Part shown: piece after piece, positions 3,138-25,160 of the stretch
Layout of the letters: each line of letters starts with the position of its first letter
Numbering within the stretch: the stretch's first letter is position 1
Assembly: GCF_001458315.1 (NCBI RefSeq)
Contig: NZ_CYRX01000010.1
Location: 1 to 64,000 of the forward strand
Source: Thalassobacter stenotrophicus
Lineage (GTDB): Bacteria > Pseudomonadota > Alphaproteobacteria > Rhodobacterales > Rhodobacteraceae
Direction of reading: 5' to 3'
Length of the DNA stretch: 64,000 nucleotides
Program-made: the position numbers and the translations under genes
Notes under the pieces: generated by a model
Database searches by the model: none
What the model was told of the DNA's origin: nothing
Seen by the model: the letters and a program-made list of their open reading frames with translations, nothing else

Positions 3138-3406
3138 CAGATCGTGAAAAAATTCTGCTTCTGTTCGAAGTGATCTGGGACTTCTCGCTCAATGAGGACA
3201 ACCCTCTCAGTTTTATCGATCATATCGGATTTGATATTGCTCTGATTTCTACCGCGCACCAGCTGCCAGACGCGCTTTTAGGGTTCTACCGTGATCGCAC
3301 AGGTGACTATGATGTCGCCCGTCTTGAAAGGGATATGGACACATGGGCCCCAATGGTCACCGCACTCGAGGCGGCGGCTGCTGCTAAGAAGGGAACTTTA
3401 GCCTAA
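3134..3406 (+). CDS. Small acidic hypothetical protein
   Basis: A 90-residue acidic protein I do not recognise. It looks helical throughout, with hydrophobic stretches (ILLLFEVIWDF near the start) but no membrane segment or signal peptide, and ends in an Ala-rich tail. It overlaps the primase stop by four bases (ATGA) and its own stop overlaps the next start (TAATG). It is therefore part of the same coupled operon and may act with the primase; no function can be read from sequence. Confidence 0.6.
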   Translation: MTDREKILLLFEVIWDFSLNEDNPLSFIDHIGFDIALISTAHQLPDALLGFYRDRTGDYDVARLERDMDTWAPMVTALEAAAAAKKGTLA

Positions 3407-3816
3407 TGATTTGTGAACGCCTCGCGCAGATCGACATCCGGTCGTTTGGCAAGTCTCCGCCTTTTGGTCGCTTCCACCATGCAGGGTGCCCGGTCAATAT
3501 CACCTCAACAACCTGTCACTTTGGCGGAGTCCGCTACTGGTTCGTGTGCCCGATGTGTGGTCGTCGCTGTGCGGTACTGTATCCCACAAAGTGTAGAAAA
3601 TGCGTTGGTGCACGTTACTCCGTCGAGCGCGAAAGTGTCGCAAATCGGCGGATAACGCGTGCGATCCGGTTACGTCAAAGGCTTGGGCAGAAAGGCGGCG
3701 GTATATGTGTTCCATTGCCCCCGAAGCCCAAAAGGATGCGCTGGCATACCTATCTTCAGCGCTGTCGGAAGATCAAAGCATTAGAGGACAATATCTGGGC
3801 GTCCCAAGCCCTCTGA
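3406..3816 (+). CDS. Zinc-ribbon protein of the island
   Basis: A 136-residue basic protein with a treble-clef-like cysteine pattern: CPMCGRRC around residues 48-55, then CRKC near 63-66, which should bind one zinc. The N-terminal half is beta-rich with aromatic residues around the cysteines; the C-terminal half is Arg/Lys-rich and probably binds nucleic acid. Proteins of this look are common near primases in alphaproteobacterial islands, but I cannot name a function. The start at 3406 is coupled to the preceding stop (TAATG). It is the last gene of the island operon. Confidence 0.6.
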   Translation: MICERLAQIDIRSFGKSPPFGRFHHAGCPVNITSTTCHFGGVRYWFVCPMCGRRCAVLYPTKCRKCVGARYSVERESVANRRITRAIRLRQRLGQKGGGICVPLPPKPKRMRWHTYLQRCRKIKALEDNIWASQAL

Positions 3817-4006
3817 AGTCAGGCCACTAAGGTGTTAGTCATCCCTCCCGGTAAAGGATGAAACTCTAAGCAGGATGGGGAGTGCGGAACACATTATCAG
3901 AGCGACCAATGAATAAGATGCTGGCGTGAAAGCCTAAGAGCGTCGCTAGAAGTATGAGATTGGCGATGCCACGTTTTATAATTGAGGCCAGCTCGGCAGG
4001 CCGCGC

Positions 4007-4375
4007 AAAACGGTTATCCTGGTTGACGATGACGCCAAAGACCGCAAGATGACGGAGTAGTCTATAAGCAACAGAAGCTTCAACGTGCTCCTCGCAGCAT
4101 CGGCTTATCTGGCGGACTAAACCCCATAAGAAGCCGTACCCTATATCATTCTGGTAGACATAGACAGGGACGGGCGCGACGGCTGACCCTTTGCGCAAGG
4201 GTTGCGCGCTAGGGAATGGCCCCACATCCCGATCATCATCATCTCCGGTCATGCGGACGAAGAACGAAAAAGCGGCCAGAGGCTTGCTTTGGATGAGGCA
4301 TTCCAGCCCAAACCCTCTCACTTCGACAACCTCGCAATGCAGATCGCCGAATTTCTCAAGATCAGGCTGCTGTGA
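4007..4375 (+). pseudogene. Decayed receiver-domain response regulator
   Basis: One continuous plus-strand frame reads as a receiver domain of about 122 codons, interrupted by four stops (4058, 4103, 4127 and 4184). It begins KTVILVDDDA, the beta1 strand with the acidic pocket. It continues through YIILVDID, which holds the phospho-acceptor Asp, then WPHIPIIIISGHADEE (beta4 and its loop) and FQPKPSHF (the conserved Lys-Pro). It ends in a normal stop at 4373. The frame has not shifted, so the damage is mostly nonsense substitutions plus a probable small in-frame loss at the second stop-rich part. No intact kinase partner is nearby. It sits between the island and the catabolic cluster. Confidence 0.8.
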
Positions 4376-4873
4376 AAGGGCGCGCCGTCTGATGCGGAAA
4401 ATGGTGCGTACCATGCCAGAACTAGCCATTGGTCGCAAAGTGTTAAGGGTAGAAACTGCTCGCGCACCAGATCTTCAAGCAACGAGTGTCGAGTGACGAG
4501 TAGGAGCCTATTTTGACAAATTCTGGAATGAGTACCGAGGCCAAAACACCCTTTCGAAGCAGTCATTGAAGCCTGCCTTTGCACCTCACTAATCATGATC
4601 CGGGCATGTTCACCGCAATCTCAATAGTCGGATCGGCATCATAACACCTCCGTATTCACATTTCTAAATTGCCTTCCAGCAGCTCCTATATGGCATTCGG
4701 CGGCCACGAGGATTGGGTCATTGTAGAGCCGCAGCGGTCTATTTGGGCAAAGACTTCGGCCAAGAGTGAAAACGATCCGTGAAATATGTTTCATAGGGCT
4801 GCCGCTTGAAATTGTCTCAGCGCGACTTGAGGTGCGGTGGCCCAAGCAGTGCTGCCTCAACTCTCTCACTGAT
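4376..4873. other. Non-coding stretch with no supportable gene
   Basis: About 500 bases without a credible gene. Frames on both strands are short, lack ribosome-binding sites and do not resemble known families. A segment near 4806-4860 vaguely recalls a LuxR-type helix-turn-helix but is interrupted and cannot be supported. The stretch is probably decayed DNA like the neighbouring pseudogene. Confidence 0.5.
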
Positions 4874-4888
4874 AGGTTAGTGATACTT
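4874..4888 (+). promoter_or_regulatory. 15-bp palindrome, operator copy 1 (LysR-type box)
   Basis: GTTAGTGATACTTAC is an inverted repeat (one arm mismatch) lying 57 bases before the acyl-CoA synthetase start. It fits the LysR T-N11-A pattern. Closely related 15-mers stand at 9005-9019 and 23995-24009, before the fusion enzyme and the porin. The LysR gene at 8012-8977 is the natural candidate regulator (inference). Confidence 0.55.
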
Positions 4889-4944
4889 ACAGGATTTATT
4901 CTGATTGTAATTGCAGGTTAAGCCTCTGATTGGGAGGAGAACCA

Positions 4945-6549
4945 ATGCAAATCGATGTTACGCCTAGGCCAGCAGCCTCGGCCCAGTCAGGGTATGAGGT
5001 GATTGACTGGGTCGGCTACCATGCCGCAGTCAAACCCTCAGCCATAGCCATGCGAGAACTGCCATCGGGGCGCGTGCAAACCTATGGTGGGATGCACATT
5101 CGTGTGGGCAAGATCGCAGCAGGGCTGCGCGTCCGCGGTGTTGAGGCCGGCGATAGGGTCGCTTTCTTGATGCCCAATTCATCAGACATCATGGATTTGA
5201 CCTTCGCGGTATGGCGGCTTGGAGGGGTGGTGTTGGCGCTGAACCATCGGTTATCCGCGCAAGAATTGGGTTTTATCCTAAACGATGCGGGTGCGCAGGT
5301 GGTCGTTCACGACGCGAGCCTATCTGAACTTGTAAGCGAAATCGATGCGCCGGCGGTGACTGATTGGATCGCGTCTAACGGTGACGGAAGCGACAGCCCC
5401 TTTGAAGCTGCCATCGCTTCGCAGAGCACACCTGTTTCGGATCGTATCCCACAGCACCTGCAAGACCAGTGCATGCTGATGTATTCATCAGGTACGACAG
5501 GGCGACCTAAGGGCGTCATTATCACCCATGGTATGATCCATTTTTCGGCATCCGGCAGTTTCGGGCCATGCCGTACATCTTCCAATAGCGTTTCACTTGC
5601 AGCGATGCCGCTGTTTCATATCGCGGCAATGAATGTCAGCTGCTTGCCGATGTTTTCGATCGGAGCCACTAGCATCATCATGCGAGCTTTTGAGCCTGAA
5701 GCCGTGCTGACCGCGATTTCAAACCCTGAGCTTGGTGTCACGCATACATTCGCTGTTCCGGCCGCTTTCAATGCGTTGCGCGAAAGTGCCAGCGCGGAAA
5801 CCTCTGATTTTTCTCGTTTGGTCACGGTTATTTCCGGGGCCGAGACGGTGCCCGAACCACTTGTAAAATGGTGGGCGGATCGTGGCGTGCAGATCCTTGA
5901 GGGTTACGGGCTGACGGAGACTGCTTCGGCGGGCTGCCTGCTGCCCCACGCGGACGTCGGCCGCAAACACGGCTCGACCGGCATGCCGACCATGTATGGC
6001 CCCATGAAAATCATGAAAGATGAAATGACCGAAGCTGGGGCAGACGAACTGGGGGAAATCTGGGTGCGGGGGCCTGTTGTGACACCAGGATACTGGAACT
6101 TGCCAGAAGCCACGGCGGAAGCCTTTTATGATGGATGGTTCCGTACCGGCGATATCGGGCGCAAAGACACTGAGGGGTATCTGTATATCGAGGACCGCTT
6201 GAAGGACATGTACATTTCAGGTGGCGAAAACGTGTATCCTGCCGAAGTTGAAAATGTCCTTTATGAGCACGCTGCCATCGTGGAAGCAGCGATCATCGGT
6301 GTGCCTGACAAACGTTGGGGGGAGGTCGGCTGCGCGGTTGTAGTCCTGCGCCCTGACATCCCATTTGACGCCGCCGAAATTGAAACACTGTGCGAAGGAA
6401 AACTCGCACGTTTCAAGCGGCCAGCACATGTCGTCCTGCTGGACGCATTGCCACGAAACGGAACCGGCAAGGTTCTCAAGCACGAACTTAGAAAAATTGT
6501 GGAATCCGGCGAAGTCCGGTATTCAGAGACTCTGGGGAGAAAGCAATGA
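4945..6549 (+). CDS. Acyl-CoA synthetase, AMP-forming
   Basis: A 534-residue member of the ANL adenylating family that activates a carboxylic acid to its CoA thioester with ATP. Visible motifs are the phosphate loop SSGTTGRPKG (181-190), YGLTETAS (the A5 region), GWFRTGDIG with the ribose-binding Asp, the hinge region KDMYISGGENVYP, and the C-terminal PRNGTGKVLK with the catalytic Lys. Length is normal for medium- and long-chain or cyclic-acid ligases. The ATG at 4945 follows a GGAGG site; an earlier in-frame TTG at 4930 would remove that site, so I reject it. It overlaps the transporter start by ATGA. Substrate cannot be told from sequence. Confidence 0.9.
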   Translation: MQIDVTPRPAASAQSGYEVIDWVGYHAAVKPSAIAMRELPSGRVQTYGGMHIRVGKIAAGLRVRGVEAGDRVAFLMPNSSDIMDLTFAVWRLGGVVLALNHRLSAQELGFILNDAGAQVVVHDASLSELVSEIDAPAVTDWIASNGDGSDSPFEAAIASQSTPVSDRIPQHLQDQCMLMYSSGTTGRPKGVIITHGMIHFSASGSFGPCRTSSNSVSLAAMPLFHIAAMNVSCLPMFSIGATSIIMRAFEPEAVLTAISNPELGVTHTFAVPAAFNALRESASAETSDFSRLVTVISGAETVPEPLVKWWADRGVQILEGYGLTETASAGCLLPHADVGRKHGSTGMPTMYGPMKIMKDEMTEAGADELGEIWVRGPVVTPGYWNLPEATAEAFYDGWFRTGDIGRKDTEGYLYIEDRLKDMYISGGENVYPAEVENVLYEHAAIVEAAIIGVPDKRWGEVGCAVVVLRPDIPFDAAEIETLCEGKLARFKRPAHVVLLDALPRNGTGKVLKHELRKIVESGEVRYSETLGRKQ

Positions 6550-7952
6550 CCAGCACATCAATCGGATGGGGCACGCGGCTCGCCTATGGGATCGGGTCCA
6601 TCGCCTACGGCATCAAGAACAACGGCTTTGCTACGTTCCTGATGATTTACTTCAACCAAGTATTGGGGTTGCCTGCGATCCTGGTTGGTCTTTCATTGTT
6701 GATAGCCTTGCTTTTTGACGCGGTATCGGACCCGTTGGTCGGGTACATTTCCGACCGCCATAACTCGCGATTAGGGCGTCGACATCCGTTCATGTATGCA
6801 GCGATCTTGCCGACCTGTATCGCCTATTTCTATATGTGGACGCCCCCAGATCTGGGTCAAACTGGCTTGTTCATCTATCTGACAGTGATGGCGATCACAG
6901 TACGTCTGTCGGTCACATTCTTCGAGGTTCCCAATTCTGCTTTAATTGGGGAGTTAACGCACGATTATGACAAGCGCACAGCCCTTTCAGGTTTGCGCTT
7001 GATGATGGGCTGGCTGGCCGGTGTCATCATGGCCGTTGTGGTCTACCGCGTGTTTTTGGCGCCGTCGGTTGAATACGACGACGGGATCATGAACCTTGAG
7101 GGCTATAAGAGTTACGCGATTACGGCAGCAATTGTGATGGGGGTGGCAATGCTGATTTCATCGTTGGGAACGCATCGCGCTATCAAGCATTACTCAAAGC
7201 CGGACGCCGAAAGCGAAGGCCATGGGTTTTCGTTCATGCAAAACGTCAAGTATATTTTTCGTAACCGGTCTTTCCGCGCGGTCTTTATCGGGACGGTCTT
7301 TAGCAGTCTTGTCGCTGGGATTGCTACGACGTTGCAGCTCTATTTCGGCATCTACTACTTCGGTTTGTCTACCGGTCAGCTAGGGCTCGCGGCGCTAACG
7401 ATGGTTCCCTCTGCGATCATCGCCTTTTTGGGGACGTCTCAATTAAGCAAGGGGCGCGAAAAGAAGTCGGTCGTTGTCACGCTGTCCTGGATATCGATGG
7501 TTTTGTCGGTGATCTTAATCGCGGCGAAATCAGCAGGAATTCTGCCCGAGAACGGATCGACAGACATGTTCTATGTCGTCGCTCTTGCGACCTTTGTGAC
7601 AACGGCTGTAACGATTTCACTTTCGATCATGAGTGTTTCGATGGTCGTTGATCTGGTCGAGGGCGATGAGCGCAATACAGGGCACCGTGCCGAAGGGCTT
7701 TATTTTGCTACGTTCTCCTTTACCGCCAAGATTGTGACCGGCTTTGGCACGTTCGTGTCGGGTGCACTTTTGACATTTGGCGCATCACCTGGAACGGGCG
7801 AGTTAATGAGCGAAGAGGTAATGCAAGGCATCGCGCTGCCTTATGCAATTTTGATGGTAGTGCTACATATTGCGTCGATTTACTGCCTGCGCCGCTTCGG
7901 TCTGACCCGCGATGGCCATACCGATAATTTGCAAGCGGTTCAGAAAATCTAA
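6546..7952 (+). CDS. MFS carrier of the GPH (MelB-like) cation symporter family
   Basis: A 468-residue inner-membrane carrier with about 12 hydrophobic segments. The loop after the second segment, FDAVSDPLVGYISDR followed by GRRHPFM, is the hallmark of the glycoside-pentoside-hexuronide:cation symporter family. Family members mostly import sugars or uronates with Na+ or H+. Here the gene is translationally coupled (ATGA) to an acyl-CoA synthetase in a fatty-acid-like cluster, so an organic acid or other non-sugar substrate is more likely (inference). A strong hairpin follows the stop and separates it from the convergent LysR gene. Confidence 0.85.
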   Translation: MTSTSIGWGTRLAYGIGSIAYGIKNNGFATFLMIYFNQVLGLPAILVGLSLLIALLFDAVSDPLVGYISDRHNSRLGRRHPFMYAAILPTCIAYFYMWTPPDLGQTGLFIYLTVMAITVRLSVTFFEVPNSALIGELTHDYDKRTALSGLRLMMGWLAGVIMAVVVYRVFLAPSVEYDDGIMNLEGYKSYAITAAIVMGVAMLISSLGTHRAIKHYSKPDAESEGHGFSFMQNVKYIFRNRSFRAVFIGTVFSSLVAGIATTLQLYFGIYYFGLSTGQLGLAALTMVPSAIIAFLGTSQLSKGREKKSVVVTLSWISMVLSVILIAAKSAGILPENGSTDMFYVVALATFVTTAVTISLSIMSVSMVVDLVEGDERNTGHRAEGLYFATFSFTAKIVTGFGTFVSGALLTFGASPGTGELMSEEVMQGIALPYAILMVVLHIASIYCLRRFGLTRDGHTDNLQAVQKI

Positions 7953-7974
7953 GAAGTAATAGGCTTGTCTTAAA

Positions 7975-8000
7975 AGTGGCCATCTTTCGGGATGGCCACT
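7975..8000. terminator. Bidirectional terminator hairpin
   Basis: A perfect 10-bp stem (AGTGGCCATC with GATGGCCACT) around a six-base loop lies between the convergent carrier and LysR genes. It is placed 22 bases after one stop and 11 after the other. A long T-run is absent, so termination strength is uncertain. Confidence 0.6.
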
Positions 8001-8011
8001 ACTTGTTGAAT

Positions 8012-8977
8012 TCAGGGTAATCCCGCCCCGGCCCGGAATTCATTTACACCGTAGCGCAACACCGTCTGGATATGTGACAGCAACTGGTGGGCCGCAGGGG
8101 GCAGGGGGCGCTGGTTAAGCCACGCAGCCACGCCGGGGATTGTGCGCCGATTGTAAGGCCAGTCGATGATGTCCAGCTTGCAGACTTGCCCCGTGTCGAT
8201 TTCTTTTCGCACGATAAATTCCGGCAAAGTAGCTACAGCATTGGTAAGCAATAACAACTGTCGCAGCAAACCAAGACCTTGAGAGGTCAGGAATGTGTCA
8301 CGCAGGGTGCTAATATCAGGGAACGTTTCGGGATATGCTTCCATGATCCCCCACAAGAACCAGTCTGGCACATCGCCGCCAATCACCGAATAGGTTGTGA
8401 GAGTTTCGATCCCGATGGGCCCTTGTCCAACAAGGGGATGATCTGCGGAACACAAGACAACCGGTGGCACCAATTCAAGCGCGCGGTAGCGCAAGGCATC
8501 GGATTCGCGGTCGGGTCGCAGCCCGATGTAAATGTCGATCTGACGTTCTTCCAGGTAGCGTTCCCACTCGTTACGATTACAAATGATGACTTTGAAGCGC
8601 CAGTCAGGGTGCGACGTGATCAGTCGCGCCATAGCCGGTGCCAAGAGGCTTTCAGAGACGGTTGGGTCGGTTCCGATCAGCAATTGACCGGCCTCAAGAT
8701 CGCGCAGCATTTGGACGTCGCGGGCCGCGGCTTCCATTTCGTTAATTGCGATTCGCGCAGCAGCGATAATCCGTTCGCCAAGGGCCGTCGGCACCGTTTC
8801 GTTTCGGGAACCGTCATGGCGGGTGCGGTCAAACAGTTCGGTGCCGTGTTCGGCCTCCAGCCGTTTAATGGTCTGACTGACAGCAGAATGTGAAATTCCA
8901 AGTTTTTGGCCAGCTTTGCGGAAGTTTCCCGTGTCAGCCAGCGCAACAAGCTGTCGAAGATGTCCAAGGCTGTCCAT
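8012..8977 (-). CDS. LysR-family transcriptional regulator
   Basis: A 321-residue LysR-type regulator. Residues 1-60 carry the winged helix-turn-helix (HLRQLVALADTGNFRKAG, then SHSAVSQTIKRLE). Residues about 90-300 form the periplasmic-binding-protein-like effector domain. It is divergent from the fusion-enzyme gene, with a 15-bp T-N11-A palindrome at 9005-9019 in the shared promoter, the usual LysR arrangement of autoregulation plus activation of the divergent operon. Two related palindromes before the acyl-CoA synthetase and the FadL-like porin suggest a wider local regulon. The inducer is unknown, probably a pathway intermediate. Confidence 0.9.
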   Translation of the reverse strand: MDSLGHLRQLVALADTGNFRKAGQKLGISHSAVSQTIKRLEAEHGTELFDRTRHDGSRNETVPTALGERIIAAARIAINEMEAAARDVQMLRDLEAGQLLIGTDPTVSESLLAPAMARLITSHPDWRFKVIICNRNEWERYLEERQIDIYIGLRPDRESDALRYRALELVPPVVLCSADHPLVGQGPIGIETLTTYSVIGGDVPDWFLWGIMEAYPETFPDISTLRDTFLTSQGLGLLRQLLLLTNAVATLPEFIVRKEIDTGQVCKLDIIDWPYNRRTIPGVAAWLNQRPLPPAAHQLLSHIQTVLRYGVNEFRAGAGLP

Positions 8978-9073: not shown

Positions 9074-12000
9074 ATGCAGAACTTCAACGGAAAGACAGCG
9101 TTCATTACTGGTGGCGCGGGTGGTATCGGATTGGCGATTGCCAGCAGCCTTGGTGACTGGGGTGCCAAGATCATGCTCTCGGACCTGAGCGAAGACCGCC
9201 TGAAAGAGGCTGTCGCATCGCTTGTGGAGAAGGGCGTGGACGCCGATTACGTCGTCTGCGATGTGGCAAATGCGGACAGTGTCGATCTGGCGGCGCGCCG
9301 TACGCTGGAGAGGTTCGACAAGGTCCACATTCTTGTGAACAACGCGGGTGTATCCTGTGGCGGGCCGACAGGAGAAATCCCCCTTGATGACTGGCACTGG
9401 AGTGTTGGCATCAACCTAATGGGAGTTGTGCACGGGGTTGAGATTTTTACCCCGCTGATCAAAGCGCACGGCGAGGGCGGACACATCATCAACACGGCAT
9501 CAATCGCCGGTCATATCGCATTTGCCAGCGGCGCGCCGTATGTGGCAACGAAGTTCGCGGTCGTCGGTTATTCCGAAACGCTGCGCGAGGACCTCGCGGG
9601 AAGTGGGATCGGCGTCAGCGTTTTATGCCCTGCGTGGGTACGCACCGACATCAACAAATCGCAAACGATGCGGCCATCCCGCTCAAAGATGGATAACGTC
9701 GAAGCCTCTGAAAGCATGAAGCTTGTCGAGACGTTGGTGGACAATGGAATGGATCCAAGCGTCATCGGTAACTTGGTCGTGGATACGATCCAACAGGATC
9801 GGTTTTATGCCTTCACCCATGCCGAAATGCTGCCCCACATCGAGGCGCGTACCGAACGTCTGCGCGCGGATTATGCGGCCAGCTTGGCCAGCATCGAACG
9901 CAGAGACGGGGCCTATGAGGCCTCCGGCGATCTTGAAGTGCTTATTATTGGAGCAGGGTTTTCTGGGGTCTGTGCGGGGATCAAGCTGCGCGAGGCAGGC
10001 ATTACGAATTTCCGGATTTATGACAAAGCCGACGGCATCGGTGGTACATGGTATCTGAACACCTATCCCGGTGCCGCCTGCGATATCCAATCGCATTTTT
10101 ATAGCTACTCGTTTGAACCAAACCCCAATTGGAGCCGCCTTTACGCGCCCCAGCCTGAAATCCAAGCCTACATTGAGCATTGTGCCGACAAATACGGCGT
10201 GCGCAAACACATCCGGCTCGAGCGCAAAATCGCATCGATCATTTATGACGATGTAGATGGCGTTTGGACCACGACATTTGAAGACGGTGAGGTTGTCAGA
10301 TCACGGTTCGTGATTAACGGCTCAGGCGGGTTGCATGAACCAAACTATGCGCCCTTCAAGGGCGATGACAGATATCAGGGCGTCAAAATGCATACGGCGC
10401 GGTGGGATCATTCGTTTGATCCTACGAACAAGCGCATTGCGGTGATCGGTAGTGCGGCCAGTGCCATTCAGGCGGTGCCGCAACTGGCGAAAGTTGCAGC
10501 CAAGGTCAGCCTCTATCAACGCACGCCCAACTACATCGCGCCCCGACTGGATTTTTCTTATACAGACGAGCAGATCGAGGCCTACCGTGTCGACCCAACG
10601 CTGATCAAAACCGATCGTGATGATATGTATTGGGACCGTGAAAACCGGCTCTACCCTATTGTTAAAAACGAAGCGATCCGCCGAGCTGCCGCCGAGGATA
10701 TAAAATCCGCAATGCGCAGTCAGGTGACCAAGACAGAATACCACGATGCGCTCATGCCGGACTATGAATTGGGCTGTAAACGCATCCTGATCTCTGATGA
10801 TTTCCTGCCTTCCTTGAACCGTGACAACGTGGCGTTAATCACCAGCCCGATTGCCGAGATGACAGAAACCGGGATCATTACGGAGAACGGTGTTTCCGAG
10901 GAGTTTGACGCAATCATTTACGCGACCGGCTTTGATGTTCAGGGGCACCAGTTTTCAATGGATATTCGGGGCGAAGAGGGCCTTGCGCTGTCCAAGTGGT
11001 GGGAAAACGGCTCGGAGGCTTATCGCGCGACGATGGTACCGCATTTTCCAAATTATTTTCTGGTGACGGGGCCAAATGCGGGTGTCGGAACGACGTCGAT
11101 CGTCCATCTGATCGAGCAGTCGGTCGGCTGGATCGTGCAGGCCGTGCAGAAGGCTGGCAACGACCTGAGCGTGACGGTGAGCAATGAAGTCACGCGCTCC
11201 TATAACGAAGCGTTGCAGAAAGAGCTGTCGCAGACAGTTTGGGCCTCGGGTTGTAAGAGTTGGTATCTAACGGATGATGGCCGGATCGAAACGCTGTTCC
11301 CCGGGAATGCGCAGGATTTTGAAGCGCAGATGCGTGATGTTGATCCCAGCGAAGTGACGTTCTTCAAGCTTGAGGGCGGGCGCAAGGAAACCGTAGACCT
11401 GATGCTGGCTGCACCGGAGGTAAGCACATCGGTCAAGCCGTATGAGGGCACGTTCGATCCAGCGTTCAAAGATGTCGCCGAGGCATTTGCCGCCAATTTT
11501 GCAGATCGTGGAGAGGTCGGCGCAAGCCTATGTCTAGCGGTTGACGGCAAAACGGTTGTCGACATTTGGGGCGGCATCTCCGCACCAGCGAGCAAGGCGG
11601 CGTGGCAGCGTGATACGATTGTCCCTGTCTACTCCTGTACCAAAGCCGCGACGGCCATGTGTGCGCATCTGTTAGTGGACCGCGGTCTGCTTGATTTGGA
11701 CGCGGCGGTCGCGAATTACTGGCCCGAATTTGCTGCCAATGGCAAAGACTGTGTGACAGTGCGGATGTTGCTAAACCATTCCGCCGGAATTCCGGCTTTG
11801 CAGGCAAAGGTGCCGCCACAGGGGTTCATTGATTTTGAGGCGACCGCCGCGATGTTCGCGGCACAGGCGCCATTCTGGACGCCCGGCACAAAGAACGGCT
11901 ATCACATGGTCAGCTTTGGCTGGCTTGTGGGCGAAGTCGTGCGACGGGTTTCCGGCAAATCGCTGGGCGCGTTCTTCCGCGATGAGATCGCGGGGCCGTT

Positions 12001-12598
12001 GGGGCTTGATTTCTGGATCGGGCTGCCTGCGAGTGAAGAAAAACGGCTGGCGCAGGCTATTCCATTCGTGCCCCCAGCAGGGACACCACCGTCAGAATTC
12101 CTAACGACGCTAATGTCCGACCCGGGTTCGATACAGTTCCTGTCTTTCATGAACACCGGCGGGTTTGACATGAACCAACGCGCCTATCGTGCAGCCGAGA
12201 TTGGCGGGGCGGGGGGCGTGGCCAACGCCCGTGGTCTGGCGGGAATGTTTGCGCCGCTGACGACGGCCAAAGGCTATCTGTCCCGGTCACGCATTGATGC
12301 CATGCGCAAGCCCTCGATGGAAACGGAGCGTGATGAGACGCTGTTGATACCGACGCGCTTTGCCGAAGGGTTTATGCTGTCGATGCCCAACCCAAAACAG
12401 CCAGCGGGTGCATCCGTGCGACTAGGCGAGGGCGCATTTGGCCATGTCGGGATGGGCGGCAGCATCGGCTTTGCCGATCCGAATGCAGGTTTCGCTATGG
12501 GCTATGCGATGAACAAACTGGGCGGTGGCATTCTCTTGAACGAGCGGGGCCAATCGCTGGTCGATGCCGCCTACGCAACTGTTGGAGAGACCGTATAA
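9074..12598 (+). CDS. Trifunctional fusion: SDR + Baeyer-Villiger-type monooxygenase + beta-lactamase-fold esterase
   Basis: A single 1174-residue frame with three enzymes. Residues 1-275 are a classical short-chain dehydrogenase: TGGAGGIG (12-19), Asp37 after beta2 (NAD preference), NNAG (89-92), Ser143, Tyr156 and Lys160. Residues 285-780 are a class B flavin monooxygenase: FAD motif GAGFSG (293-298), GGTWYLNTYPG (323-333), a Baeyer-Villiger fingerprint at 434-445 (Tyr in place of the first Phe, then the HT and WD), a second Rossmann site GSAASA, and ATGFD (617-621). Residues 795-1174 are a serine beta-lactamase-fold hydrolase: S854-x-x-K857, Tyr943, GHVG (1123-1126). Together they suggest alcohol to ketone to ester to alcohol plus acid. 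ATG 9074 has an excellent GGAGGA site; the longer open frame runs into the LysR gene. Confidence 0.92.
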   Translation: MQNFNGKTAFITGGAGGIGLAIASSLGDWGAKIMLSDLSEDRLKEAVASLVEKGVDADYVVCDVANADSVDLAARRTLERFDKVHILVNNAGVSCGGPTGEIPLDDWHWSVGINLMGVVHGVEIFTPLIKAHGEGGHIINTASIAGHIAFASGAPYVATKFAVVGYSETLREDLAGSGIGVSVLCPAWVRTDINKSQTMRPSRSKMDNVEASESMKLVETLVDNGMDPSVIGNLVVDTIQQDRFYAFTHAEMLPHIEARTERLRADYAASLASIERRDGAYEASGDLEVLIIGAGFSGVCAGIKLREAGITNFRIYDKADGIGGTWYLNTYPGAACDIQSHFYSYSFEPNPNWSRLYAPQPEIQAYIEHCADKYGVRKHIRLERKIASIIYDDVDGVWTTTFEDGEVVRSRFVINGSGGLHEPNYAPFKGDDRYQGVKMHTARWDHSFDPTNKRIAVIGSAASAIQAVPQLAKVAAKVSLYQRTPNYIAPRLDFSYTDEQIEAYRVDPTLIKTDRDDMYWDRENRLYPIVKNEAIRRAAAEDIKSAMRSQVTKTEYHDALMPDYELGCKRILISDDFLPSLNRDNVALITSPIAEMTETGIITENGVSEEFDAIIYATGFDVQGHQFSMDIRGEEGLALSKWWENGSEAYRATMVPHFPNYFLVTGPNAGVGTTSIVHLIEQSVGWIVQAVQKAGNDLSVTVSNEVTRSYNEALQKELSQTVWASGCKSWYLTDDGRIETLFPGNAQDFEAQMRDVDPSEVTFFKLEGGRKETVDLMLAAPEVSTSVKPYEGTFDPAFKDVAEAFAANFADRGEVGASLCLAVDGKTVVDIWGGISAPASKAAWQRDTIVPVYSCTKAATAMCAHLLVDRGLLDLDAAVANYWPEFAANGKDCVTVRMLLNHSAGIPALQAKVPPQGFIDFEATAAMFAAQAPFWTPGTKNGYHMVSFGWLVGEVVRRVSGKSLGAFFRDEIAGPLGLDFWIGLPASEEKRLAQAIPFVPPAGTPPSEFLTTLMSDPGSIQFLSFMNTGGFDMNQRAYRAAEIGGAGGVANARGLAGMFAPLTTAKGYLSRSRIDAMRKPSMETERDETLLIPTRFAEGFMLSMPNPKQPAGASVRLGEGAFGHVGMGGSIGFADPNAGFAMGYAMNKLGGGILLNERGQSLVDAAYATVGETV

Positions 12599-18025: not shown

Positions 18026-18792
18026 CCGAATACGTTAGTCTTCAACGAAACGGCCTGGTTGCAACGATTTTGTTGAAACGGCCCGACGCTTATAATGCTC
18101 TAAACGAGAAAATGCGGCTGCAACTGGCGCAGGCAGTCGCAGAGGTCGAGGCCGATGCGACCCTGCGCGTGGTTGTTATTGCAGGCGTGGGGCGCGGGTT
18201 TTGCGCAGGGGCAGATATCAAGTCGCGGTCTGCCAAAACGTCTGGTGAGGTCTTGGAGGAGGAATTTCGTCCCTGCCTCGCGCCCATATGGAGCAGCGAC
18301 AAGATCTATATTGCGGCGGTGCATGGCTATGCCGCCGGGATCGGGGCCGCCATCGCACTGGCATGTGATCTAATCGTTATGGAGAACACAGCAAAGTTAG
18401 CGTTGGCATTTGCGGCCATAGGCCTGATCCCCGATGGTGGGCTGTGCTGGCACCTGACCCGTGCACTTGGATCGCGCCGCGCACTTGAAGCTATTGTCGA
18501 GGGCCAAAGCCTAGATGCAGAGCTCTGCGCTAAGACTGGTCTGGCCAACAGGATCACGGATCCTGGCGATGCCTTGGCAACAGCACAAACTTGGGCTGCA
18601 ACCATCGCAGATGCGGCACCGTTGGCCGTTACCGCCGCAAAGCGGCTGGTGGCGCAATCTGGTCAGATGGATATACACGATATATTTTCCTATGAGGCAA
18701 AAGAGCAGACGCACCTTGCGCAATCAAAGGATCATGATCGTGGCGTCGCGGCCTTTCTGGGCCGCGAAACGCCGGTATTCAAAGGCAGCTAG
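18022..18792 (+). CDS. Enoyl-CoA hydratase/isomerase, PaaG-like active site
   Basis: A 256-residue crotonase-fold enzyme. The oxyanion hole is visible in GRGFCAGADIKS and AAGIGAAIALACD. At the acid-base positions, the first glutamate of typical hydratases is replaced (AAIGL) and the second position shows IPDGG, as in PaaG-type isomerases where a single Asp works. It may thus shift a double bond rather than, or as well as, hydrate it (inference). It is coupled to the NMO-like gene by ATGA, and its stop overlaps the convergent acyl-CoA dehydrogenase gene by four bases. Confidence 0.85.
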   Translation: MTEYVSLQRNGLVATILLKRPDAYNALNEKMRLQLAQAVAEVEADATLRVVVIAGVGRGFCAGADIKSRSAKTSGEVLEEEFRPCLAPIWSSDKIYIAAVHGYAAGIGAAIALACDLIVMENTAKLALAFAAIGLIPDGGLCWHLTRALGSRRALEAIVEGQSLDAELCAKTGLANRITDPGDALATAQTWAATIADAAPLAVTAAKRLVAQSGQMDIHDIFSYEAKEQTHLAQSKDHDRGVAAFLGRETPVFKGS

Positions 18793-19886
18793 ACTAGATC
18801 AAATTGCATATAGCGCGCCAGATGGTGGTCCGCGTTACCCATTTCGTGATCGATCATCACCAGACGTTTCGCGAAATGACCCATCTCGTATTCCCACGTC
18901 ATGCCGATACCACCGTGAAGCTGGATCGCCTCTTCGGCGACCAATGTGCCGATCCGCCCGATGGAGTATTTGGCGGCTGATAGGGCCTTGTCGCAATCTG
19001 TCTCAGATTTATTCACGGCAGCGGCAGCATTGATGACGGCGGAGCGCGCCTGTTCGATCTCAAGCAAAACCTGAGCCATGCGATGTTGCAGCGCTTGAAA
19101 GCGTCCAATAACGGTGCCGAACTGTGTGCGGGTGCGAAGATAGTCCAACGTGGTTTCCTTGATCGCCTCCATGATGCCGAGAGCTTCGGCACATATGGCG
19201 AGGCACGCCCAGTTTTCGGCGGTACGCACGATCGTATCGGCGTGATGCGCTGATCCAAGGAGGGCATCGCTCGATATGGCTAAATCTGCGAAATGAATAT
19301 CACTAGCCGATCCACCATCGAAGGTGTCGTGATGGGTTATCGCAACGCCATTGGCTGTCGGGTCGATTAGAAAAAAGGACGCCTGTGCTGCGTCCGCGCC
19401 GCTTTGCGCACTGAGGACAATGGTATCGGCACCTGCGGCAAATTTCACCATGGGTGCGGTCCCGTTCAGGATCCAGCCAGCCTCAGATTGCTTTGCAGTT
19501 ACCCTGTCACCGGTTGTATGCGCTTGAGCGACAACGTAGCGGCTGGCGCCAGTTATTACCTTCGCCAACCGCTCAAAATCCCCTGCCGCGGCAAGGACGT
19601 GGCCTGAACGTAGCACACAATCGAGCAATGGTTCGACGACCAGTCCGCGGCCCAATTCTTGAAAGACAGCTGCAACGTCAAAAGCAGAGCCGCCAAAGCC
19701 CCCCTGTTCTTCGGTAAAGAAGACCCCAAACATCCCCAATTCGGCGAGGTTGTTCCAATGGACATCGCTGAACCCTTGGGGGCTGGCTGCTGCATCGTTC
19801 CGGTCCGACAGATTGTATTCATTCTGGATATAGCGGGCAAGAGTATCGACCACCATTTGCCGTTCTTCAGTGTGTGTGAAGTCCAT
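18789..19886 (-). CDS. Acyl-CoA dehydrogenase, PimD-like (small subunit of a pair)
   Basis: A 365-residue acyl-CoA dehydrogenase. The N-terminal helical domain, middle beta domain and C-terminal helical domain are all present, and LHGGIGMTWEYEMG is the usual late motif. A clear catalytic glutamate motif of the YEGT type is missing. It lies eight bases after a second acyl-CoA dehydrogenase on the same strand. Pairs like this (PimC/PimD, mycobacterial FadE28/29 and FadE26/27) form heterotetramers acting on dicarboxylyl- or bulky ring-bearing acyl-CoAs. The heteromer is inference from pairing and length. Confidence 0.85.
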   Translation of the reverse strand: MDFTHTEERQMVVDTLARYIQNEYNLSDRNDAAASPQGFSDVHWNNLAELGMFGVFFTEEQGGFGGSAFDVAAVFQELGRGLVVEPLLDCVLRSGHVLAAAGDFERLAKVITGASRYVVAQAHTTGDRVTAKQSEAGWILNGTAPMVKFAAGADTIVLSAQSGADAAQASFFLIDPTANGVAITHHDTFDGGSASDIHFADLAISSDALLGSAHHADTIVRTAENWACLAICAEALGIMEAIKETTLDYLRTRTQFGTVIGRFQALQHRMAQVLLEIEQARSAVINAAAAVNKSETDCDKALSAAKYSIGRIGTLVAEEAIQLHGGIGMTWEYEMGHFAKRLVMIDHEMGNADHHLARYMQFDLV

Positions 19887-19894
19887 GATATTTC

Positions 19895-21061
19895 CTAAAG
19901 CCCCAGGATCATCTTGCTGATGATGTTCTTCTGAATTTCGTTTGATCCGCCATAGATCGAGAGTTTTCGGTTGTTGAAATAGACGCCTGCTGCGTTCGTT
20001 GCGCCGGCGGGGGCCTGTTCGCCTGACCGCAGTGCTTGTGCGTCGCGCCCCACCACGCGACGGATGAGGCTGTCGAGCTCTTGATGGATTTCTGAGCCGA
20101 GGATCTTGAGCATCGAACTCTCTGCGCCGGGAGCCCCTCCACCCGCAACTGAGGCAAGGACACGCATGTTAGTGGTGTCCATGTTCGCCAGATCAATCTC
20201 AACCCGGGCGATCCGAGCCGCCAGAAGCGCCTTTTCATGGACGGAAAGGCTACGAGATTTTTCGGCAAACAAGTCTTTCAGCCGTGTAAGTTTTTTCTTA
20301 GACGCACCAACCATTGCAATGCCGGTGCGTTCATATGTCAGAAGGTATTTTGCGTAAGTCCAGCCTTCGTTCTCGGCACCCACAAGGTTTGAGGCCGGCA
20401 CGCGGACGTTGGTAAAGAACACTTCGTTGATCTCGTAGCCGCCATCGATTGTGCGGATTGGGCGCATCTCGATCCCCGGCGTGGCCAAGTCGATCAGCAA
20501 GAATGAAATACCCGCCTGCGGTTTGCCTTCGTTTGACGTGCGGACAAGGCAAAAAATCATATTCGCGTATTGGCCCAGTGTGGTCCACGTCTTTTGCCCG
20601 TTGACGATGTAATCATCACCATCGCGCACCGCTGTTGTACGAATGCTGGCTAGGTCCGAACCTGCTCCGGGTTCCGAATAGCCCTGACACCACCAATCTG
20701 TGCCGTCGATCATGCGAGGCAGATAGTAATCGCATTGTTCCTGCGAGCCGAACTTCATCAACACAGGCGCAAGCATCTTGAAATTAAACGCTAGCACCTT
20801 GGGTGCATCGGCACGGGCCATTTCCTCATCGAAAATATGGGTCTTGACCGGCCCCCATCCCGTTCCGCCAAATTCGACAGGCCAGTTGTAGGCGAGCCAG
20901 CCTTGGCGGCGCAGGATCGCATGCCAGTCCAGTAGTTGCTCCTTGTTTAGATAACCGCCCTCCGCAACGATCCGTGCGTATTCAGGAGGCAGGTTGTTTT
21001 CGACGAAGTCGCGCACCAGAGCGCGAAAGTCTTCATCCTCGGGCGAAAAGGTGGTGTCCAT
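19895..21061 (-). CDS. Acyl-CoA dehydrogenase, PimC-like (large subunit of a pair)
   Basis: A 388-residue acyl-CoA dehydrogenase resembling the large subunit of pimeloyl-CoA dehydrogenase. It shows WPVEFGGTGW near residue 60, GYSEPGAGSDLAS, NGQKTWTT and the C-terminal IYGGSNEIQKNIISKMILG. First gene of the two-gene pair; promoter 33 bases upstream carries the CATAC-type palindrome at 21094-21109. Reduced FAD would be reoxidised by the ETF encoded at 25242-26923. Substrate class (cyclic or dicarboxylic acyl-CoA) is inferred from family. Confidence 0.87.
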   Translation of the reverse strand: MDTTFSPEDEDFRALVRDFVENNLPPEYARIVAEGGYLNKEQLLDWHAILRRQGWLAYNWPVEFGGTGWGPVKTHIFDEEMARADAPKVLAFNFKMLAPVLMKFGSQEQCDYYLPRMIDGTDWWCQGYSEPGAGSDLASIRTTAVRDGDDYIVNGQKTWTTLGQYANMIFCLVRTSNEGKPQAGISFLLIDLATPGIEMRPIRTIDGGYEINEVFFTNVRVPASNLVGAENEGWTYAKYLLTYERTGIAMVGASKKKLTRLKDLFAEKSRSLSVHEKALLAARIARVEIDLANMDTTNMRVLASVAGGGAPGAESSMLKILGSEIHQELDSLIRRVVGRDAQALRSGEQAPAGATNAAGVYFNNRKLSIYGGSNEIQKNIISKMILGL

Positions 21062-21093: not shown

Positions 21094-21109
21094 CATACCA
21101 ATCAGTATG
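21094..21109. promoter_or_regulatory. 16-bp palindrome, TetR-type operator copy 1
   Basis: CATACCAATCAGTATG, six-base arms (one mismatch) around four bases, 33 bases before the acyl-CoA dehydrogenase pair. An almost identical site is at 22297-22312, and both are followed by GTTTT-like sequence. The TetR gene between them is the likely regulator. A weaker GTAAGTAAAATGAAC half-match to the LysR-type box is at 21125. Confidence 0.65.
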
Positions 21110-21156
21110 TTTTACGAAAACGCTGTAAGTAAAATGAACCAATGCTTGCCCAGACG

Positions 21157-21804
21157 CTATGCGCGCGCGGTCAGTGTTCCGAGAGCCATTTGTGCGATGA
21201 GCTCTGCAATCTCGAGGTGGGTTTCATCTGTGTCTTCAGGACGAGCCTGATACCAGAAGATTGGCGCATTCAAGAGCACAAGCACGCTGTTTACAGTAAC
21301 CGAAATCGATTGCTGGGCAAAGCTGGTGTCCTTTTGCCCCGCCGTTATCACATCTCGAAACAGATCTTCATATCCGGCTTGCATGGATTTTATGTCATCC
21401 AGCAGTTCGCGTTCATGGGTTGGCAAGTCTGAACGCAGCCCCGCGCGCAGGTTTTCGACGACGACACGATGGTAAGGCAAATCGGCAAGGATACCCATGA
21501 CATGTGCACGGGCCATCGCCAGAAACCGCTGTGTCGTTGGTGCCGGAGTGTTTGCAATCGGTTTTACACGGCTAAGCACGGACAAGATCGACTGTTTTCG
21601 CACGGCCAACAGCAACTCACCCTTGCTGTTGAAGTGATGATAAACCTTGCCTTTCGAAGCGCCCATCTCTTGTGCGACTTGATCCATAGACGTGGCATCT
21701 ACACCGTTTTTTGCAAAGCAAATTGCGGCCGTTCGAACGATCTCTGGCTTAAGGTTTGCGCGGCTCAATGGTCTTTCGTCTCCGGTTGTCAGCTGCTTAT
21801 GCAA
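21157..21804 (-). CDS. TetR/AcrR-family regulator
   Basis: A 215-residue TetR-type repressor. Residues about 18-65 form the DNA-binding domain: a first helix, then ATSMDQVAQEMGASKGKVYHHFNSKGELL, the typical helix-turn-helix. The rest is the helical ligand and dimer domain. In acyl-CoA catabolic clusters such regulators commonly sense acyl-CoA. It lies between two copies of the CATAC palindrome (21094 and 22297), which are its probable operators. Its start overlaps the MaoC gene by eight bases, so it is co-transcribed and probably autoregulated. Confidence 0.88.
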   Translation of the reverse strand: MHKQLTTGDERPLSRANLKPEIVRTAAICFAKNGVDATSMDQVAQEMGASKGKVYHHFNSKGELLLAVRKQSILSVLSRVKPIANTPAPTTQRFLAMARAHVMGILADLPYHRVVVENLRAGLRSDLPTHERELLDDIKSMQAGYEDLFRDVITAGQKDTSFAQQSISVTVNSVLVLLNAPIFWYQARPEDTDETHLEIAELIAQMALGTLTARA

Positions 21805-22264
21805 AGATGGCGAGGGTCAGCCAATCGGCGACAAGAGCGGGCTTGGCTCCGCCTTCAATTTCTACTGTCATTGCGCTTGTTTGCAACAGTTGGCTATCTG
21901 ATTTACGGATAATATCTTTTGCGACGAACCGCCCCCGCACGCGCGCGCCGGATGGCACTGGCGTCAGAAAACGGACCTTGTCAAAGCCGTAGTTCATTCC
22001 CATGACTTGACCATCCTGGTTGGGAAAACTGTCAAATGCAAATCGGCTGGCCAACGATAAAATAAGGAAGCCATGGGCAATTGTCCCGCCGAAGGGGGAC
22101 TCTGCCGCGGCGCGGGCCGGGTCATTGTGGATGAATTGCCGGTCCAATGTGACGGTGCCAAACTCATCTATCATTTTCTGATCGACGGTTTGCCAGTCCG
22201 ACACACCTATTTCAGTGCCGAGGCGATTTTGGAGTGCGGTGAAGGCTGTATCGATAAAGGGCAT
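21797..22264 (-). CDS. MaoC-like (hot-dog) enoyl-CoA hydratase
   Basis: A 155-residue single hot-dog protein of the MaoC/NodN type. The hydratase motif is visible as FIHNDPARAAAESPFGGTIAHGFLILSL, with the catalytic Asp and His; GMNYGFDKVRFLTPV is also typical. It would hydrate a 2-enoyl-CoA. The gene is first in a minus-strand pair with the TetR regulator and is divergent from the iron alcohol dehydrogenase across a promoter with the 22297 palindrome. Confidence 0.87.
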   Translation of the reverse strand: MPFIDTAFTALQNRLGTEIGVSDWQTVDQKMIDEFGTVTLDRQFIHNDPARAAAESPFGGTIAHGFLILSLASRFAFDSFPNQDGQVMGMNYGFDKVRFLTPVPSGARVRGRFVAKDIIRKSDSQLLQTSAMTVEIEGGAKPALVADWLTLAIFA

Positions 22265-22296
22265 GGCGGTCTTGTCCGTATTGATTTCGTTGACAC

Positions 22297-22312
22297 CATA
22301 CTCACTAGTATG
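22297..22312. promoter_or_regulatory. 16-bp palindrome, TetR-type operator copy 2
   Basis: CATACTCACTAGTATG, perfect six-base arms around CACT, in the divergent promoter between the MaoC-TetR pair and the iron alcohol dehydrogenase. It matches the copy at 21094. One bound repressor could control both directions. Confidence 0.65.
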
Positions 22313-22355
22313 TTTTTTGTCGAGAAGCCTTACGAATTAAAGAAAGCCTGATGCT

Positions 22356-23525
22356 ATGACTTTGGCACATGATAGTTTCGCCTTCGACACCGTGCCTTCC
22401 GTTAGGTTCGGCGCAGGTTGCCTTGGTCAAATCGGGTCGATCGCAGGTGAAACAGTCGGCAAAACCTGTCTTGTTGTCACCGATCGCGGTCTTGTGGCGA
22501 CCGGTATCGTGGATCAAGCACTTGCAGCTTTACACTCGTGCGGGATCCATTGCGAAGTCTTTGACCAGGTTGAGGCTGATCCATCCGAGGCGACAGTCTT
22601 ATCGGCAGTTGCACAGGCGAGGGCGCTTGGCTGCAACAGTATCATCGGGCTTGGGGGCGGGTCTTCTCTCGATGTGGCGAAGCTAGTTGCGTATCTTGCT
22701 GGAACAGGTGAGCAGATCAGCGACATTTACGGAGTGGGACTAGCATTGGGCAAGCGTTTGCCGCTGGTGTTGGTTCCTACGACATCAGGGACCGGATCCG
22801 AGGTCACACCGATCGCAATCGTAACGACACCAAGCCAAGAGAAAATGGGGGTGGTGTCATCGGCGTTATTGCCTGACGTAGCGCTTCTTGACCCGCTCCT
22901 AACCCTCGGGCTGCCAGCGAATATCACGGCGGCGACAGGAATTGATGCGATGGTGCACGCCATTGAGGCCTACGCCTCCGCTAGTCCAAACAACAATCCC
23001 ATCTCACGCACCCTCGCACTTCAGGCATTGCGTCTGCTCGGTGGCGCGCTCTTGCGCGGAGTGCATCAGGGTGATGACCTTGGAGCGCGATCAGACCTTT
23101 TGATCGGTTCCATGCTGGCCGGACAGGCCTTCGCAAATTCTCCGGTCGCAGCTGTGCATGCGCTCGCCTATCCGATTGGCGGGCATTTCAAAATTCCACA
23201 CGGGCTCTCCAACGCATTGGTCCTTCCGCATGTCTTGCGGTTCAACATCAACACCGCCCCGGATGCCTACGCGCAAATGGCGTCTGCTGCCTTTCCGAAG
23301 TTGGCGGATGTTCCCAAAGCTGAAAGGGCTGCGGCCTTCTGCAATTGTCTCGAAGGTTTGTCGCGCAGTTGCAACTTACCACAACGCTTGCGCGATGTCG
23401 GTATTGCGCGCGAAGCCCTGCCGATGATGGCACGCGACGCCATGAATCAGACCCGACTTCTCATAAACAACCCGCGTCCAGTCACTGAGGCAGACGCCCT
23501 ATCCATCTACGAGGCCGCATGGTGA
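22356..23525 (+). CDS. Iron-containing alcohol dehydrogenase
   Basis: A 389-residue group III (Fe-type) alcohol dehydrogenase. Motifs: GGGSSLDVAK for NAD(P), VPTTSGTGSEVTP, DAMVHAIEAYAS, and the metal-binding HALAYPIGGHFKIPHG. It would oxidise a primary alcohol to aldehyde or act in reverse. In context the alcohol released by the fusion enzyme's esterase step is an attractive substrate (inference); no aldehyde dehydrogenase is present nearby. It overlaps the thioesterase start by seven bases. Confidence 0.88.
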   Translation: MTLAHDSFAFDTVPSVRFGAGCLGQIGSIAGETVGKTCLVVTDRGLVATGIVDQALAALHSCGIHCEVFDQVEADPSEATVLSAVAQARALGCNSIIGLGGGSSLDVAKLVAYLAGTGEQISDIYGVGLALGKRLPLVLVPTTSGTGSEVTPIAIVTTPSQEKMGVVSSALLPDVALLDPLLTLGLPANITAATGIDAMVHAIEAYASASPNNNPISRTLALQALRLLGGALLRGVHQGDDLGARSDLLIGSMLAGQAFANSPVAAVHALAYPIGGHFKIPHGLSNALVLPHVLRFNINTAPDAYAQMASAAFPKLADVPKAERAAAFCNCLEGLSRSCNLPQRLRDVGIAREALPMMARDAMNQTRLLINNPRPVTEADALSIYEAAW

Positions 23526-23962
23526 ACCGCCCTGAACCCCCAACCCGTGCAGAATATCTGACGTTTAGAACGATCACCACGCGGTGGTTCGATAACGACA
23601 TCTATGGACATATGAACAATACGGTTCACTACGAACTCTTTGACACCGCTGTGAATGGTCTCCTTGTCGAAAAACGTATTCTCAGCTTGCGAGATAGTTC
23701 TGCGGTTTTTCTTGTTGTCAGTTCTGGCTGCAACTATTTTTCGGAGCTTGCCTTTCCGGACGTCATCAATGCGGGTCTCAGCGTCACAAAGCTGGGAACG
23801 TCATCAGTGCACTACGATATCGGCTTGTTTGCTGGAGAAAGCGGTCGTGCCGCGGCGCGTGGGCACTTCATACACGTAAACGTAGATCGAGAATCACGAC
23901 GGCCAATTCCTATCTCAGATCAGGCTCGCATGGTCCTGAGCGAGCTGGTTGTATCCGAATGA
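23519..23962 (+). CDS. Acyl-CoA thioesterase, 4HBT type
   Basis: A 147-residue hot-dog thioesterase. The catalytic segment TRWFDNDIYGHMNNTVHYELFD contains the 4-hydroxybenzoyl-CoA thioesterase-like Asp motif. It hydrolyses an acyl-CoA to free acid, which may drain dead-end thioesters and spare CoA. It is coupled to the iron alcohol dehydrogenase (overlap of seven bases) and is the last gene of that operon. Confidence 0.85.
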   Translation: MVNRPEPPTRAEYLTFRTITTRWFDNDIYGHMNNTVHYELFDTAVNGLLVEKRILSLRDSSAVFLVVSSGCNYFSELAFPDVINAGLSVTKLGTSSVHYDIGLFAGESGRAAARGHFIHVNVDRESRRPIPISDQARMVLSELVVSE

Positions 23963-24009: not shown

Positions 24010-24098
24010 CTCATTTATTGAGTGAGTAATCTGAGATTAACGTCCCCAAGGCGACGCGCGGAGGCTGTGGGCGCTGAAATTCTTTGGGAGGAGCAATA

Positions 24099-25160
24099 AT
24101 GAAACTGAAAATCACCACCAGTGCCGCGATCCTTGGCGCCGTAGCGACAACTGCCTCGGCAGGTTCGCTTGAAAGAAACAATATGCCGATCGAACTCTTG
24201 TTTGACTCGGGAAACGTGGTGCAGTTCTCGTATACTGCCCCAAACCTAAACCTATCGGCAGCACCATTCGGCAGCACAGGCAGCGTTTTGAATGATTTCA
24301 CTACAGTCGGGTTAGCCTTCAAAACCGACATCAACGATGATCTCGCGCTCGGTGTGTTTTTCAATCAACCATTCGGTGCTGACAACGGCTACGAAGGCCC
24401 CGGCGCCGCAGGCCTTGCCATCGACTTTCAGAGCAATGAACTGGCGGCTGTTCTCAGTTACCAGATGAATCAAAATCTTTCGCTCCACGGCGGTGTCCGT
24501 GTGGTGGAGAGTGAACTCAATCTAAGCATACCAATCCCATCACCTTCCTTCCTCTATACATTGGACGCCAAGTCAGACAGAGGGTTTGGCTACTTGTTAG
24601 GTGCGTCTTATGTTGTGCCCGAACGGGGTGCTCGCGTTACACTGACCTATCAATCGTCCGTGAAACACAATTTCGAAAGCACCGAATTCGTTGGAGCAAC
24701 AATTGACGGGAACACAGAGGCCGAACTGCCGCAGTCGCTCAAATTGGACGGTGAGATTGCGCTAAACTCAAGCACTTTGCTGTTTGGCAGTGTGAAGTGG
24801 TCCGACTATTCGAATTTCGACGTCGCTGCGCCGGGATACGCGGGGATTGCCGGGCAGGTTAGTGTCATCGACTACAACGAAGACAACATTAACGTCAGCG
24901 TCGGTCTGGGACGGTCGATCAACGACGAATGGTCGGGCTTTGGCATCCTGGAAGCCCAACTCACAGATGGAGAAGCGAACGAGCTGCGCCCCTATGATGG
25001 TAGCCGGGCACTGACACTCGGCGCACGTTACACGAGCGGTCAGTATGAAATTACGGCCGGTGCGCAATATCGACAGTTCGGCGATGCGACTGTTAGCGGT
25101 GCTACGTTCTCTGGAAATGATGCGGTTTCGCCGTTCCTGCAGATCGCCTATTCGTTCTAA
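24099..25160 (+). CDS. FadL/TodX-like outer-membrane hydrophobic-compound porin
   Basis: A 353-residue outer-membrane beta-barrel of the FadL/Toluene_X type, admitting long-chain acids or hydrocarbons. Residues 1-21 are a signal peptide ending TASA. The mature N-terminus is followed by alternating amphipathic strands, and the last residue is Phe (QIAYSF), the barrel-assembly signal. ATG 24099 is preceded by GGGAGGAG; the in-frame TTG at 24084 is rejected for removing it. An operator palindrome stands upstream and a strong terminator follows. Its presence says the substrate of the cluster is hydrophobic. Confidence 0.85.
   Translation: MKLKITTSAAILGAVATTASAGSLERNNMPIELLFDSGNVVQFSYTAPNLNLSAAPFGSTGSVLNDFTTVGLAFKTDINDDLALGVFFNQPFGADNGYEGPGAAGLAIDFQSNELAAVLSYQMNQNLSLHGGVRVVESELNLSIPIPSPSFLYTLDAKSDRGFGYLLGASYVVPERGARVTLTYQSSVKHNFESTEFVGATIDGNTEAELPQSLKLDGEIALNSSTLLFGSVKWSDYSNFDVAAPGYAGIAGQVSVIDYNEDNINVSVGLGRSINDEWSGFGILEAQLTDGEANELRPYDGSRALTLGARYTSGQYEITAGAQYRQFGDATVSGATFSGNDAVSPFLQIAYSF

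Follow-up and report, generated by a model that had tools for sequence, protein, structure and literature searches.

A predicted DarR-like TetR repressor with two putative operators among CoA-thioester genes of Thalassobacter stenotrophicus

The window analyzed here, the whole stretch of 64,000 nucleotides at the start of contig NZ_CYRX01000010.1 of Thalassobacter stenotrophicus, contains a TetR-family gene (21157..21804, minus strand) flanked by two palindromes, and the question that it raises is whether both are operators of the repressor encoded between them and, if so, which genes and which signal this repressor would connect. A sequence-only reading had described twin CATAC palindromes beginning at 21094 and 22297, with shared arms and a common T-rich sequence downstream, one before a pair of acyl-CoA dehydrogenase (ACAD) genes, the other in the divergent promoter of a MaoC and an iron-containing alcohol dehydrogenase (Fe-ADH) gene, and the TetR gene in between. 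All of these elements were recovered: CATACCAATCAGTATG (site 1) occupies positions 21094–21109, within the 95-bp gap between the TetR gene and the ACAD gene at 19895..21061 (minus strand), and CATACTCACTAGTATG (site 2) occupies positions 22297–22312, within the 91-bp gap between MaoC (21797..22264, minus strand) and Fe-ADH (22356..23525, plus strand). The T-rich flank common to both sites is a piece of a longer palindrome, AAACATAC...GTATGTTT, which is clearer in relatives, and the MaoC gene also lies between the two sites. We propose that the palindromes are very probably the operators of a DarR-like TetR repressor that would be released by a metabolite and would control the MaoC-TetR unit, the Fe-ADH/thioesterase unit and the ACAD pair.

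The order of features along the window is a small-subunit type ACAD gene (18789..19886, minus strand), the large-subunit type ACAD gene, site 1, TetR, the MaoC-type hydratase gene (PF01575), site 2, Fe-ADH (PF00465 and PF25137), a 4HBT-type thioesterase gene (23519..23962, plus strand; PF13279) and the gene of a FadL-like porin (24084..25160, plus strand). The TetR gene has a TTG start and its frame overlaps the stop of MaoC, the first gene of the predicted MaoC-TetR unit; the thioesterase frame overlaps the Fe-ADH gene, with which it is likely to be co-transcribed. The distance from the site to the minus-strand start codon is 32 nt in both cases (ACAD at 21061, MaoC at 22264). A weak sigma-70-like match for MaoC (TCGACA-N17-TATGGT, 22295..22323, minus strand) has site 2 across its spacer and second hexamer, one match being found and 1.0 expected from shuffles, which is no better than chance. 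The best solved relatives of the Fe-ADH protein are methanol and 1,3-propanediol dehydrogenases. The large ACAD scores best with the PimC model (427 of 624 bits) and the small one with the PimD model (252 of 653 bits), and they are called PimC-like and PimD-like here with both scores below the cut-off. Steroid ring degradation was considered as a pathway in view of the ACAD pair and an NMO-like protein at 17015; the IpdE2 model reaches 128 of 450 bits with the small ACAD.

Five-base arms are short, so that the palindromes might be thought to have arisen by chance, and in the window alone three matches with at most one mismatch are equalled in 3 of 100 shuffles, which is weaker evidence than the count in the genome. 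Within the own genome (3,592,055 bases in 33 contigs), CATAC-N6-GTATG has exactly two copies, at 21094 and 22297, and the reversed control pattern has none; instead of many unrelated copies, the scan thus yielded two exact ones, both beside the TetR gene. With a 20-base consensus and up to three mismatches, 14 places were retrieved versus 12 for the reversed control; zero or one mismatch was encountered only at the two window sites, and two mismatches at one other place. Since the sites are unique in the genome and conserved with the TetR clade (see below), a chance origin is rejected, its probability being practically nil.

The window TetR protein contains a TetR_N helix-turn-helix (PF00440, 52.9 bits against a cut-off of 24), which places it in the TetR family, together with a TetR_C_24 domain; 17 NCBIfam models match it, none of them at its own cut-off. 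Its best solved relative is DarR (Mycolicibacterium, Rhodococcus; PDB 8suk, 8sva, 8svd, 8sua, 8sv6, 8t5y; PMC10636190) with 105 bits over residues 16–213, the homology extending over the whole length, and the first solved TetR that is not a DarR is PfmR of Thermus thermophilus (PDB 3vpr) with 46 bits. In the reciprocal search, the DarR sequence retrieved the window TetR from the own genome with 104 bits and the next protein with 23 bits. The relationship is distant, 62 of 198 residues (about 31%) being identical. An AlphaFold model (pLDDT 91.4, pTM 0.86, 27-sequence alignment) was compared, in a second look, with the 999 chains ranked highest by Foldseek; the six best matches to the predicted fold are all DarR entries (Z 23.2–25.1, rmsd 2.0–2.5, 193–199 residues aligned), and after them come 3him (Z 21.4), PfmR (21.2; 20% identity), KstR2 (20.3), 2ibd (19.7) and AibR (19.2–19.4). 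KstR2 and AibR (PDB 4w97, 4w1u, 5k7f, 5k7h, 5k7z; 18–20% identity) are acyl-CoA-responsive TetR repressors, and the titles of the AibR entries name isovaleryl-CoA and operator DNA as bound partners. PfmR is also, according to PMC10636190, the strongest structural neighbour of DarR. Judged from its sequence and modelled fold, the window TetR is a distant homologue of actinobacterial DarR.

The likeness extends to the DNA. According to PMC10636190, DarR binds ATACT(N)4AGTAT, with Lys44 and Gly45 reading a TxC motif. Site 2, the predicted operator 2 in the MaoC-TetR/Fe-ADH divergent promoter region, is spelled ATACT-CACT-AGTAT and matches this operator exactly, and site 1, the predicted operator 1 upstream of the ACAD pair, is spelled ATACC-AATC-AGTAT and has one mismatch. 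The DNA-reading pair corresponds to Lys51-Gly52 of the window protein and is kept in all 27 sequences that were retrieved without use of a helix pattern; the larger count of 107 of 107 takes in 80 loci picked by a KG pattern. A second DarR dimer relies on another TxC half-site (PMC10636190). Neither window site has this third half-site, so that one dimer per site is as likely here as two; it is present in 30 of 56 distinct sites of relatives.

The window TetR protein was searched against 394 family genomes, one per genus, and a TetR clade, delimited by a break in E-value between 2.9e-22 and 3.4e-13, was found in 27 of them, the own genome included. A phylum-wide search of 299 genomes gave six with E up to 1e-20, again including the own genome, and a search at genus level found no second genome. 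CATACYNNNNRGTATG occurs in 79 of the 394 genomes: 25 of the 27 clade genomes contain it, as do 54 of the 367 that lack the clade (Fisher p 2.8e-17). Some of the 25 have exact copies away from TetR, and where the clade is absent the frequency of the pattern is close to background, the reversed control likewise being present in many genomes. At the 26 other clade loci, a site within 600 bp upstream of TetR is seen in 19 if one arm mismatch is tolerated (15 exact), an exact site lies 1.6–1.8 kb upstream, ahead of a MaoC gene, in two, an exact site is found only 5.6–6.1 kb away in four, and one has no site. When 4.6-kb cuts round the DarR-like genes are considered, 17 of the 26 contain an exact site, as compared with none of 20 control loci of weaker TetR matches. 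At three loci from three genera (L054, L055 and L056, genomes G154, G004 and G337) the only exact sites are 5.8–6.1 kb upstream of TetR, which may be the distant end of a common gene cluster.

These counts bear on the alternative that the sites serve another regulator, either the LysR protein encoded at 8012–8977 or another TetR, and stand beside the TetR gene by operon layout only. The window does contain that LysR gene, and proximity assigns an operator indirectly; however, the sites track the TetR clade across genomes and not the 20 other TetR loci, the same motif is the one bound by DarR (PMC10636190), and a LysR match was seen in only 3 of 81 sequences of a neighbourhood survey, the window's own included. 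We therefore consider such a regulator highly unlikely. The sequence-only reading had suggested one acyl-CoA-sensing repressor for both units, separate from the LysR set. That one TetR repressor acts on both sites is strongly supported by the comparison, through the uniqueness of the sites, their conservation with the clade, the homology with DarR and the control of 0 of 20, all at the level of sequence. That the sites are independent of the LysR gene fits the data, since they accompany the TetR gene at loci that gave no LysR match. The comparison likewise supports the prediction that TetR regulates its own gene through the MaoC-TetR promoter.

A second set of relatives was scanned without a preset motif. 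The pattern KG[RK][IV]YH[HYW][FY]xS retrieved 316 relatives, and the best 80 loci among them formed a named set that overlaps the family set. In the 600 bp upstream of these, 13,312 palindrome types (1,024 five-base arms with 13 spacers) were counted. CATAC-N6 ranks first with 34 of the 80 loci, the best unrelated type reaching 6 of 80, and ranks 2–5 (AACAT-N10, ACATA-N8, ATACT-N4 and AAACA-N12) are sub-frames of the same motif. The density of exact sites over the 80 loci peaks at −600..0 with 0.713 per kb, is zero at −1.5..−0.6 kb, and amounts to 0.126 per kb at −3..−1.5 kb and 0.032 at −6..−3 kb; downstream it is 0.018 per kb at 0..+0.7 kb, zero at +0.7..+3 kb and 0.008 at +3..+6.7 kb. With one mismatch allowed in the arms, 54 of the 80 loci have a site within 600 bp upstream, and 53 have an exact site anywhere in the locus. 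If exact sites up to 6 kb upstream or 0.7 kb downstream of the match start are counted together with one-mismatch sites in the 600 bp upstream, 73 of the 80 loci have a site, 56 of the sites being distinct, and seven have none (L060, L064, L068, L069, L071, L074, on a 3.1-kb contig, and L106). Positions outside the selected arms are also kept: a pyrimidine at 6 and a purine at 11 in all 56 distinct sites, and A at −1 and T at 18 in 51 of them. Beside an intact GTATG, nine loci have the altered half-site CAGAC (L099, L110, L119, L120, L122, L123, L127, L131, L136) and nine others CATTC (L102, L104, L107, L109, L111, L116, L118, L134, L138), possibly lineage-specific changes of the operator.

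The genes that accompany the site in relatives give insight into the targets. Five Planktomarina-type loci (L061, L063, L067, L072, L073) keep the set of Fe-ADH, thioesterase, MaoC, TetR and ACAD genes together with the site, in the order thioesterase, Fe-ADH, a further ACAD, site, MaoC, TetR, an ECH-type gene, large ACAD and small ACAD; no second site was seen before the ACAD pair in these loci, where the ACAD genes lie downstream of TetR in the same direction. L060 has the same gene set without the site. The site separates TetR from a divergent ACAD pair in the Shimia-type loci L078 and L086, and from a unit showing SDR and MaoC matches in the Mesorhizobium-type loci L117 and L137. In L082 two exact sites flank TetR as in the window, the second one before a gene whose product has biotin carboxylase and carboxyl transferase domains. 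Both operator positions of the window thus recur in relatives, and the common theme is CoA-thioester metabolism. AMP-ligase matches occur near other clade loci in 26 of 81 sequences.

In L067, the gene between MaoC and TetR encodes an APH-type kinase, and ECH and 3-hydroxyacyl-CoA dehydrogenase domains are joined in a single gene, so that the stretch 3130–8760 of this locus, near the operator, carries ACAD, MaoC, APH-type kinase, TetR and a FadB-like fusion. The pair of ACAD and APH-type genes resembles ACAD10/11 and the LvaA route for 4-hydroxy acids; by this analogy, it may hint at 4-hydroxy acids as the substrate class.

The ligand side has to be considered separately from the DNA side. It could be argued that the window TetR is a true DarR, whose affinity for DNA would rise with cAMP or c-di-AMP bound at the dimer interface, as PMC10636190 reports for the site that includes Arg165 and the signature W-x6-Q-x7-L. 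DarR is indeed the closest solved relative, and Trp177 and Tyr178 of the nucleotide site (DarR numbering) are kept; on the other hand, Asp159, Leu162, Arg165, Arg179, Ile181, Gln184 and Leu192 differ, the window protein having Asn at 165, Asp at 184 and Ile at 192, and the signature is found in none of 107 relatives (27 of the family set and 80 of the named set, overlapping). Furthermore, the own genome gave no match to diadenylate cyclase (PF02457), the control search finding matches in 11 of 14 genomes. A cyclic-nucleotide-strengthened DarR in the window is thus very unlikely, and a DarR-type repressor released by a metabolite is preferred. As to the inducer pocket, residues corresponding to H94, H105, V108, Y138, L168 and N172 of DarR are kept, and those at M66, N97, H109 and R135 differ, Arg135 being replaced by Gln. 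Gene context, and the acyl-CoA regulators ranked below DarR among the fold matches, point to a CoA thioester as the most probable inducer, a proposal to which we give about even odds.

In the mechanism that we propose for this metabolite-released repressor, the dimer would bind sites of the AAACATACY-N4-RGTATGTTT type through Lys51-Gly52 of its recognition helix. Bound at 22297, it would block MaoC-TetR, and hence its own gene, together with the divergent Fe-ADH/thioesterase unit; bound at 21094, it would block the ACAD pair. It would then be released by a ligand bound in the pocket typical of TetR proteins, this ligand most likely being a CoA thioester or some other pathway intermediate. The whole looks like a DarR-type repressor with an operator pair wired to CoA-thioester catabolism. 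DarR itself is described, in PMC10636190 and PMC10745434, as autoregulated and as having acyl-CoA genes among its targets, its physiological inducer being left open in the former; the predicted window targets differ from those of DarR in being MaoC, the ACAD pair and Fe-ADH. A tentative and rather doubtful extension is that one operator code is common, across phyla, to actinobacterial DarR and its relatives in proteobacteria, whereas the signal differs: the cyclic-nucleotide site would be confined to the actinobacterial branch, and members of the wider family would repress CoA-thioester catabolism until a CoA thioester or a related metabolite releases them. Were this so, mycobacterial DarR might respond to an inducer of that class as well.

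Written forms of the consensus operator were not found in the open-licence literature, and no description of a proteobacterial DarR-type operator was found there by title or abstract start, which is no proof of absence. The operator proposed for EdcR of Caenibius tardaugens, TnnCnnTACnAnTnGTAnnGnnA (PMC8700777), has TAC/GTA arms in another layout. The palindromes proposed in PMC12882949 are unrelated to the window sites, and PheR of Sphingobium, an IclR regulator according to PMC13273656, is irrelevant here. The value of a recognizable operator, AAACATACY-N4-RGTATGTTT, for a TetR clade of Rhodobacterales, Rhizobiales and some others is that the corresponding regulons become readable from genomes; moreover, the clade is tied to DarR, and the DNA code of DarR reaches beyond the proteins with the nucleotide site.

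Two further observations concern the left part of the window. A single open frame of 1171 residues (9083–12598, plus strand) comprises an SDR (about 1–264), a Baeyer-Villiger-type flavin monooxygenase (from about 280), whose best solved relatives are steroid and cyclohexanone monooxygenases, and an EstB-like esterase (about 787–1166). Judged from these domains, one chain might convert an alcohol via ketone and ester to an acid. Among 198 family genomes a full-length match was found in the own genome only, the other matches listed covering single parts, and the frame may be the product of a stop missed in assembly. A primase-like gene (2121–3137, plus strand) with Toprim_3, DUF7146 and primase zinc ribbon matches suggests a mobile element at the left of the window.
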